Assembly: GCF_022842045.1 (NCBI RefSeq)
Contig: NZ_JALHQI010000027.1
Location: 1 to 38,369, forward strand
Source of the DNA: Arenimonas sp.
Lineage (GTDB): Bacteria; Pseudomonadota; Gammaproteobacteria; Xanthomonadales; Xanthomonadaceae
Reading direction: 5' to 3'
Length of the DNA: 38,369 nucleotides
The position numbers were made by a program, and so were the translations under genes. The notes below the pieces were generated by a model. That model ran no database searches, was not told where the DNA came from, and saw nothing but the letters and a program-made list of their open reading frames with translations. Below, piece by piece: positions 19,270 to 23,400 of this stretch; position 1 is the stretch's first letter, and every line of letters starts with the position of its first letter.

Positions 19270-22788
<3,519 letters not shown>

Positions 22789-22801
22789 CCCGCCCGCGCT
22801 T

Positions 22802-22824
22802 TGTAGGAGGGACTTCAGTCCCGA
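22802..22824 (+). repeat. REP-like terminal palindrome, left copy
   Basis: TGTAGGAGGGACTTCAGTCCC followed by GA is written here as GTAGGAG plus the hairpin GGGACT-TC-AGTCCC. The GTAG head followed by a short hairpin is the layout of REP sequences mobilised by RAYT (TnpA-REP) transposases, common in Xanthomonadaceae and pseudomonads. It begins 13 bases after the dnaE stop. Confidence 0.75.
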
Positions 22825-22870
22825 AGCTCTTGGGTTCCCTGCGCCGGGCCCGTTCGAGGCGACCGCCCGC

Positions 22871-22972
22871 CGCACGAGAGGTCGCTTTCCCGGACACGCC
22901 GTGAATCCGTCCATGGAGGCTCATCAGCGACGTCCGTGTCGCTGATGGTCCGGGAAAGCGACCTCTCATGCG
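22871..22972 (+). repeat. Left hairpin module of the composite element
   Basis: The outer stem is 20 bp and perfect (22876-22895 with 22948-22967; arm starts GAGAGGTCGC), extending to 22871/22972 with one mismatch. Inside are a 26-base unpaired spacer (22896-22921, containing TGAATCC, TCCATGGA and GGCT) and a 10-bp inner hairpin CATCAGCGAC-GTCCGT-GTCGCTGATG at 22922-22947. Confidence 0.9.
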
Positions 22973-23102
22973 ACGGCCTCCCGACCAAAAGGGCCGGATT
23001 CTCGATCCAGAAGGCAGGCGAGCCCTGACCTCACGGCCCAAGGGAGCGGGGCTCCAGGCTCGCGCGCTCTTCGAGCTCGACAGTCCGGCCCGGATGGCCC
23101 GC

Positions 23103-23218
23103 GGTCCGTCGTGCGCGAGGTCCCTTTCCCGGGGCTTCGAAAACAGGGACGTTTTCGAAGAGCCTCCATGGATGGATTCACGGCGTCCCCGGGAAAGGGA
23201 CCTCGCGTACGGCGGACC
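23103..23218 (-). repeat. Right hairpin module of the composite element (inverted)
   Basis: The 20-bp perfect outer stem (23115-23134 with 23187-23206; arm starts GCGAGGTCCC) extends to 23103/23218 with two G-T pairs, about 32 bp. The inner hairpin CTTCGAAAAC-AGGGAC-GTTTTCGAAG is at 23135-23160 and the 26-base spacer at 23161-23186. On the minus strand the order and all lengths equal those of the left module. Confidence 0.9.
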
Positions 23219-23257
23219 TTGGCAACGGACGATCCCGGCACAGCGAACCCAAAGGCA

Positions 23258-23280
23258 TCGGGACTGAAGTCCCTCCTACA
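23258..23280 (-). repeat. REP-like terminal palindrome, right copy
   Basis: An exact 23-of-23 inverted copy of the sequence at 22802-22824 (ends CCCTCCTACA on the plus strand). The two copies face each other and bound the composite element. Confidence 0.75.
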
Positions 23281-23328
23281 GGGACGCGGAGCCGGGGGGG
23301 GCGGGTACAGCGGCGGGCGTGGGCGGGG

Positions 23329-23334
23329 TAGAAT
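23329..23334 (+). promoter_or_regulatory. Possible accA -10 box
   Basis: TAGAAT lies 66 bases before the accA ATG, between the palindromic element and the gene. No convincing -35 box is seen at 16-18 base spacing. Confidence 0.3.
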
Positions 23335-23400
23335 CGCGGCCCTAGACCCTTTGCTCTAGACTGGCCGGCCCAAGCTGGCGCGTCTGAACCGAGTAACCGC

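Follow-up and report, generated by a model that had tools for sequence, protein, structure and literature searches.

A REP-capped mobile composite of two inverted YPAL/RU-2-type modules with candidate CsrA-binding hairpins between dnaE and accA

Introduction

Repeats of the YPAL/RU-2 kind are, in the passages that describe them, about 168 bp long and found in Yersinia and Erwinia carotovora, and a target-site duplication of 3–26 bp is reported for YPAL (PMC2229807). RU-2, as printed in Table 1b of PMC2759123, consists of a hairpin with the loop AAGGAT (hp2 in our notation), GAGCC, a second hairpin of the form TAC-ATGGAT-GTA (hp1), TTTACGGCG and a closing stem. CsrA is absent from the YPAL/RU-2 passages, with 0 occurrences in those of PMC2229807.

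A second group of repeats is formed by GTAG REPs, hairpins preceded by GTAG that occur in many copies and often as inverted pairs, which in REPINs are joined by a short linker. The associated TnpAREP proteins cut the folded, single-stranded REP in a strand-specific manner (PMC8266576). In the double inverted repeats of Pseudomonas TIRtrons, a degenerate GTAG-1 is joined to unrelated stem-loops in hundreds of copies, and the TIRtron passages of PMC3733652 state no link to YPAL or CsrA.

Binding sites of CsrA have been characterized separately. An ANGGAX hexaloop placed directly on a stem is described as a high-affinity CsrA/RsmE site on the basis of NMR and calorimetry, and the closing pair in RsmZ stem-loops is C-G (PMC4005645). 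The SELEX consensus of CsrA is given as RUACARGGAUGU, most of the SELEX winners having at most four pairs, and one CsrA dimer is stated to bridge sites 10–63 nt apart (PMC7652899). TwoAYGGAY (RF01731) is an Rfam family for which CsrA binding was proposed earlier, as mentioned in PMC4333381.

Here we describe an element that combines these features. The window, the whole stretch of DNA analysed, comprises 38,369 nucleotides of an Arenimonas sp. genome (G000 below; 3.08 Mb in 126 contigs, 94.9% complete). Like YPAL/RU-2, the modules of the element are repeated, intergenic and mobile; the element differs in having two inverted modules in a core of 397 bp, or 479 bp with its REPs. With the GTAG REP/REPIN/BIME systems and their RAYTs it shares inverted GTAG REP ends, an abundant REP family and matching Y1 genes in congeners, but 433 nt with a conserved, structured cargo separate its two 23-nt REPs, in place of the short linker of a REPIN. 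The junction of a REP with another stem-loop is also seen in TIRtrons (PMC3733652). None of these components, whether REPs, RAYTs, YPAL or CsrA sites, is new by itself. We assign a probability of about 0.58 to the reading that the element is a REP-capped mobile composite of two inverted YPAL/RU-2-type modules, for which we infer mobilisation by a RAYT and binding of CsrA.

Results

The palindrome between dnaE and accA

The element and its surroundings comprise the following features (gene names are those of the sequence-only reading of the window that preceded this analysis).

22802–23280, no strand: complete composite palindrome from REP to REP, 479 bp, in the dnaE-accA spacer
19270–22788, plus strand: dnaE, upstream neighbour, an ORF of 1172 aa
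23401–24360, plus strand: accA, downstream neighbour, an ORF of 319 aa
22802–22824, plus strand: left GTAG REP, TGTAGGAGGGACTTCAGTCCCGA, with 75 other REP matches in the genome
23258–23280, minus strand: right GTAG REP, exact inverse of the left REP over 23 nt
22843–23239, no strand: core palindrome, 397 bp, between its two end motifs
22843–22855: end motif GCCGGGCCCGTTC of the core palindrome
23227–23239: inverse of GCCGGGATCGTCC, the other end motif of the core palindrome

The sequence-only reading had taken the whole dnaE-accA spacer for one large imperfect palindrome. The palindrome itself is borne out, with two ungapped arms of 212 nt each (22802–23013 and 23069–23280) that are 76% complementary and separated by 55 nt, but it occupies 479 of the 612 nt of the spacer (22789–23400). 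Also correct were the exact inverted 23-base GTAG REPs as bounds and the like order and spacing of sub-blocks in both halves, and the idea of a structured, RNA-like element is supported. A 521-nt region folds at −367.8 kcal/mol, compared to −241.4 kcal/mol (sd 8.3) for shuffled sequences (z −15.2), and 0 of 100 shuffles were as good. Rfam at gathering scores gave no match in the window, and low-scoring microRNA families were set aside as hairpin look-alikes. The element is a composite non-autonomous mobile element, with no gene of its own.

Anatomy of the two modules

Each half of the palindrome contains one module, and the two modules lie on opposite strands.

22882–22961, minus strand: module B (95.7 bits with covariance model R1, being among the 42 copies used to build R1), outer stem 22867–22895 with 22948–22976
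22922–22947, minus strand: hairpin hp2 of module B, 10-bp stem, loop ACGGAC on the minus strand (22932–22937)
22898–22921, minus strand: conserved block of module B, AGCC-TCC-ATGGAC-GGA-TTCACGGC, with hairpin hp1
23121–23200, plus strand: module A (93.9 bits with R1, likewise among its 42 copies), outer stem 23103–23134 with 23187–23218
23135–23160, plus strand: hairpin hp2 of module A, 10-bp stem, loop AGGGAC (23145–23150)
23161–23184, plus strand: conserved block of module A, AGCC-TCC-ATGGAT-GGA-TTCACGGC, with hairpin hp1

On the strand that carries the core block AGCC-nnC-ANGGAN-Gnn-TTCACGGC, the outer stem encloses hp2, GAGCC, hp1 and TTCACGGC. Hairpin hp2 has a variable stem and hp1 has three pairs, each with a loop of six bases. 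In module A, 20 nt separate the two GGAs. Compared by eye with the printed RU-2, the layout hp2 - GAGCC - hp1 - TTYACGGC - closing stem is the same. The Rfam family Ysr224 (RF02770), which represents the opposite strand of the YPAL/RU-2 element and reaches 100.1 bits on a Yersinia massiliensis copy, matches both halves here at 26.7 and 17.1 bits, well below its gathering score of 70. Judged by sequence and layout, the modules are relatives of YPAL; the complete element is something other than a YPAL. The long unit that the sequence-only reading could not name can now be described as two inverted YPAL/RU-2-type modules with CsrA/RsmE-type hexaloops.

The modules have distinct hp2 stems, CTTCGAAAAC in module A and CATCAGCGAC or CTTCAGCGAC in module B. 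The same distinct partners recur in G000, in copies of the congener G003 and in the dnaE-accA copy of the congener G004; therefore, the two modules are inherited as a pair. Inverted arrangements are frequent elsewhere as well: among 113 neighbouring module pairs that are 30–450 nt apart, 78 face outward, 22 inward and 13 the same way.

Covariation identifies the folded strand

Covariation was measured in 42 modules that have the commonest spacing, are at most 80% identical to one another and were chosen with an outer-stem condition. The outer stem is favoured by this choice; hp1 and hp2 were not chosen by pairing, and the loop letters of hp1 are part of the search pattern. Over 27 pairs, 93.3% of the cells are paired, compared to 58.3% after shuffling, two-sided changes are present in 25 of the 27 pairs, and the covariation score is 0.881, compared to 0.209 for shuffled and at most 0.180 for slid alignments. 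The closing C-G pair of both hairpins is found in all 42 modules. In the wider set of 316 distinct modules, all three pairs of hp1 are standard in 302, with the stem forms TCC/GGA, TAC/GTA, CCC/GGG, GAC/GTC, ACC/GGT and, once, TGC/GCA.

Mismatches in the outer stem distinguish the two strands. With stems aligned without credit for wobble pairs, the 316 modules contain 282 G.T (in RNA G.U) versus 75 A.C mismatches (p 2e-29 over distinct contexts, which within a group are not independent), and eight of nine groups point in the same direction. The excess is weaker when counted per genome (class survey, n=16), with more G.U in 9, more A.C in 4 and equality in 3. Random hairpins have no consistent excess (G.T:A.C of 19:17, 18:18, 11:18, 5:16 and 3:6), and a control on REPs (9:5) contains too few mismatches to help. 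From the covariation and the excess of G.T over A.C, the ANGGAN-bearing strand is, as read from these alignments, the strand whose fold has been kept.

Both hairpins carry CsrA-type hexaloops

Hairpin hp2 lies outside the search pattern, but a DNA search whose query contained hp2 supplied part of the loci from the genus and the order. In the 316 modules, 245 ungapped hexaloop hairpins of score at least 5 were recognised at hp2 (71 modules have none), of which 233 have the loop ANGGAN and 243 a closing C-G pair. With the loci from the genus and order searches removed, ANGGAN is present in 175 of 187 hexaloops. A smaller count, of 219 modules, excludes 55, some with a GGA loop of other length or on a bulged stem and some with none. 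Many tetraloops in an initial tally of hp2 came from allowing A-T as loop closer, and that tally was replaced by the hexaloop count. Position 2 of the hp2 loop can be any of the four letters and position 6 is C, T or G. In two separate hairpins, A1, G3, G4, A5 and the closing C-G are nearly fixed, and positions 2 and 6 vary.

The motif CANGGANG is located at most 40 nt 5' of the block in 268 of the 316 modules. In 182 single modules it occurs in the hp2 zone 148 times on the ANGGA strand versus 4 times on the opposite one; the corresponding numbers in the hp1 zone are 180 and 60, the latter because TCC/GGA forms read CATGGAGG on that strand. The modules have paired ANGGAN hexaloops directly on C-G-closed stems, as in the high-affinity sites described in PMC4005645, and the TAC-ANGGAN-GTA form of hp1 fits the SELEX consensus. 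The hp2 stem, of up to 10 bp, is longer than those of most SELEX winners (PMC7652899). A csrA gene is present in G000 and in 22 of 24 further module-bearing genomes (the two without are 75% and 88% complete), which proves little, csrA being common. Because two separate loops follow the CsrA code position by position, we favour the reading that the modules bind CsrA, and we put it at somewhat better than even odds.

The Rfam family TwoAYGGAY and the CsrB/RsmZ-type sponges likewise have two hairpins with ANGGAY loops. To our knowledge, the CsrA sponges described so far are dedicated sRNA genes and not dispersed mobile repeats. TwoAYGGAY differs from the modules in that the overlaps seen are all below its cut-off: it matches the ANGGA strand of one module (L234) at 35.2 bits, with a cut-off of 43, there are further, weaker overlaps with modules, two in G141 and at least one in G040, and G000 has no match even at an E value of 1. 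The family has 8 matches in G030 and 15 in G040, both genomes from another family of the order, some of the matches being above the cut-off. Most of these are away from the module positions listed, and TwoAYGGAY may itself be a multicopy repeat in G030 and G040.

The loops also bear on the explanation that the element is simply a hairpin for RNA stability or termination in the dnaE-accA spacer, with loops of no specific meaning. A long and stable palindrome downstream of dnaE would suit such a role, as would the location of single modules in 20 convergent versus 8 divergent spacers, and YPAL is described as expressed together with the genes upstream of it, whose RNA stability it may influence (PMC2229807). 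However, the loops are among the most conserved parts of the modules, and the stems change in compensated pairs. We consider this explanation improbable.

Modules are scattered across Gammaproteobacteria

In G000 itself, a search with the left half of the element gave 78 matches, of which 3 are inside the element and 75 are short and confined to the REP part of the query. Therefore, the REP is an abundant family in this genome and the interior is not; many of the REP matches form close inverted pairs (L372 is an ordinary example). The block GCCGTGAATCCRTCCATGGAGGCTC is present in the two halves of the element only, and DNA search, pattern and covariance model detected no half unit elsewhere in G000. 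A search for further half units, proposed in the sequence-only reading, thus succeeded in other genomes and failed in the rest of this one.

A set of 41 genomes was searched, consisting of G000, 24 genomes of its genus and 16 of its order. When the interior served as a DNA query, 13 of the 41 gave matches, with 33 each in the congeners G003 and G004. Model R1 found copies in 15 of the 41, among them 31 in G003, 35 in G004, 39 in G030, 45 in G040 and 2 in G000. In an even sample of the class (185 Gammaproteobacteria, G000 included), the core pattern with at most one mismatch was present in 20 genomes, with a maximum of 94 in G123, and a reversed control pattern occurred once in all 185; at least one of the 20 (G180, L155) looks like a fortuitous hit within a coding region. 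In named genomes, modules were placed in at least 120 stretches, with Xanthomonas, Stenotrophomonas, Lysobacter, Luteimonas, Haliea, Sodalis, Yersinia massiliensis, Methylomicrobium and Saccharospirillum among the matches listed. Single queries of phage and plasmid collections did not find the module.

In G004, most of 15 aligned copies of module A (L055-L069) share another, longer right-hand part, and many carry the hairpin sequence GCTTGC..GCGCAAGC near their ends, a third kind of cap. With at most two mismatches, GCGCAAGYAGRTCAMNTGCTCG occurs 25 times in G004, 6 times in G003 and 3 times in G019, and was absent from five other genomes searched.

Occupied and empty sites indicate movement

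Thirty accA loci were fetched, and in 17 of them the spacer was read and measured from the last aligned dnaE residue to the accA start. The 17 spacers range from 29 to 689 nt. The two-module palindrome is present in the spacers of G000, G003 and G004 (597–689 nt), and ten of the 17 spacers are short, empty sites of the kind for which the sequence-only reading had suggested looking (29–117 nt; G002, G005, G008, G009, G010, G013, G018, G019, G020 and G022). In G012, G016, G021 and G023 the spacers are 146–204 nt long, with other palindromes or REPs in at least three. The half unit is thus not unique to one genome, and both the length and the sequence of the spacer vary, which is not the outcome that the sequence-only reading had named as contrary to a mobile origin; the non-autonomous mobile element proposed there is supported. 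In G000 and G003 the half next to dnaE is B and the one next to accA is A, whereas G004 (L083) has the reverse order, which suggests a separate insertion and more than one hit on the same spacer.

The spacer of G021 (L082) contains a different palindrome, also with GGGGTCAGGTTC letters, as if the dnaE-accA spacer attracts several kinds of palindromic elements. Inverted repeats starting with GGGGTCAGGTTC, around positions 1570 and 2319, frame a Y1 gene of G000 (L355, on contig C25).

Movement of the entire REP-to-REP unit is best documented in G021. Four composites of this genome (L070, L071, L073 and L077) have inverted GTAG REPs at both ends, and one (L076) has a single recognised REP; G019 contains one two-REP composite (L074) with a single recognised module. 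The best pairwise matches among the four G021 composites are 78–86% identical, and the flanks are unrelated. Three of the six pairs match end to end, stopping 1–19 nt from the outer ends of the REPs. In the other three, all involving L073, the match misses one REP because a longer stretch separates the left REP of L073 from its palindrome. When the flanks of L071 are joined, they match in a single piece of 564–639 nt in 7 of 24 relatives of G021 (G002, G003, G004, G005, G012, G013 and G014), and G021 itself is interrupted there by 418 bases, the REP-to-REP unit. In G006 and G008 the flanks are 0.7–1.1 kb apart, and the remaining relatives contain one flank, in part or in full, or neither.

The role of the REPs differs between genomes. 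In G003, eight copies of the core palindrome end at GCCGGGATCGTTC and its inverse and have no GTAG REPs; they are often located beside another hairpin sequence, into which some of the matches continue. Dispersal of this form shows that REPs are unnecessary for some of the movement. These copies, together with the REP missed in the three L073 pairs, are consistent with a nested insertion, in which a self-sufficient YPAL-type palindrome landed in or beside existing REPs that are bystanders. Yet homology runs through both REPs in the other three G021 pairs, so that at least in those the REPs travelled with the unit; the empty L071 site is a between-species gain of the REP-to-REP unit at a site without REPs; and, in the window, the 18 nt that separate each REP from the end of the palindrome agree by eye at 13 positions on the two sides. 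Nested insertion is, in our view, unlikely. We favour an element of two layers, the core palindrome and the REP caps, in which the caps travel with the core in G021 and probably also in G000, where the window copy itself is seen as occupied and unoccupied states of the spacer.

Candidate transposases are encoded by Y1 genes (PF01797). The sequence-only reading had placed the element in the RAYT/REP layout and suggested looking for a RAYT gene. The REP layout is as described; G000 has three Y1 matches, and in stretches of 3.8 kb none of these genes is beside the REP of the element, in a genome that is itself incomplete. In G021, a Y1 gene (L357) has a REPIN on either side, made of the very REP found at the ends of the G021 composites, and a Y1 gene of G020 (L129) adjoins GTGGGAGGGACTTCAGTCCCGA, one mismatch from the REP of G000. 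Given these neighbours and the cleavage of folded single-stranded REPs by TnpAREP, the REP-capped form is likely mobilised by a RAYT. The G003 form without GTAG REPs must move by another route.

Orientation relative to host genes shows no overall bias

Single modules between tandem genes (called by a simple codon-usage script) are read in the sense orientation 27 times and in the antisense orientation 25 times, without overall bias; this count excludes modules within called ORFs (35), at the edges of stretches (36) or distant from any gene (8). The sense:antisense ratio varies among subsets, being 12:5 in named genomes and 4:12 in G123. The excess of G.U over A.C is the same whichever orientation a copy has, with 74:16 in sense and 86:20 in antisense. 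Selection acting through host transcripts only would predict a difference, antisense copies decaying, and the equal excess speaks against it. The fold may serve the element rather than the neighbouring genes. Since the orientations show no overall bias in number and are equal in G.U excess, the fold has been kept in the lineage that spreads, either by element RNA that acts in trans, by a transposase that reads the folded DNA strand, or by both.

The second of these options leads to the main rival of the CsrA reading, in which it is single-stranded DNA that folds, a strand-specific transposase of the Y1/HUH kind recognises the ANGGAN hairpins, and the likeness to CsrA sites is coincidental. The lack of orientation bias and the equal G.U excess fit selection during transposition, as does the strand-specific action of TnpAREP on folded single strands (PMC8266576, as cited above). 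On the other side, a scan of 48 loci with Y1 genes, covering part of the Y1 matches (30, and 18 re-fetched, some genes twice), found no module, and the varying and fixed loop positions match the CsrA code in two separate hairpins. G.T pairs are tolerated in DNA hairpins as well, and the REP control on the G.T bias is too small to help. Recognition as DNA is doubtful but a serious contender, and we retain CsrA binding as the preferred reading.

Discussion

On the preferred reading, a REP-specific Y1 transposase (RAYT) would act on the single-stranded REPs and carry the intervening unit as an oversized REPIN. The folded ANGGA strand would work as RNA and bind a CsrA/RsmA dimer, with one subunit on each hairpin. 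As the modules are inverted, read-through from either side would expose one complete module with two sites, so that a copy, whichever way it is inserted, could serve as a sponge for CsrA or put its host transcript under CsrA. The single copy in G000 would be read from dnaE as module A.

More broadly, we speculate, at a little less than even odds, that the YPAL-type repeats of Gammaproteobacteria form one family of transposable CsrA/RsmA-binding RNA modules, with up to about 100 paired high-affinity sites per genome, arranged here as an inverted pair between REPs so that transcription from either side would expose one working module. Should the loops bind CsrA, the mobile repeats known from Yersinia would belong to a dispersed system that acts as a sponge for a global regulator or spreads its regulon. 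Many bacterial genomes would then carry jumping CsrA binding sites, in plant-associated, environmental and enteric hosts. Whether dozens of genomic copies titrate CsrA can be tested directly.

As far as our searches show, what is new is that YPAL-type modules occur across the class, that their fold is assigned to one strand and has paired loops of the CsrA type, and that an inverted pair of them is packed into a mobile unit running from REP to REP. In the titles and the beginnings of abstracts of the matches listed, we found no paper that joins CsrA to REP- or YPAL-type repeats, and a literature search on the letters of the core matched only a fungal gene.

The enterobacterial ERIC repeat has a similar order of GTGAA, a short TCC/GGA hairpin and a second hairpin. 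A distant relation to ERIC is possible in view of the conserved TTCAC 3' of hp1.

The data also assign a strand and a structure to the YPAL-type repeats. Their Rfam entry, Ysr224, represents the strand opposite to that marked as folded by the G.U bias, and the entry may be on the wrong strand.
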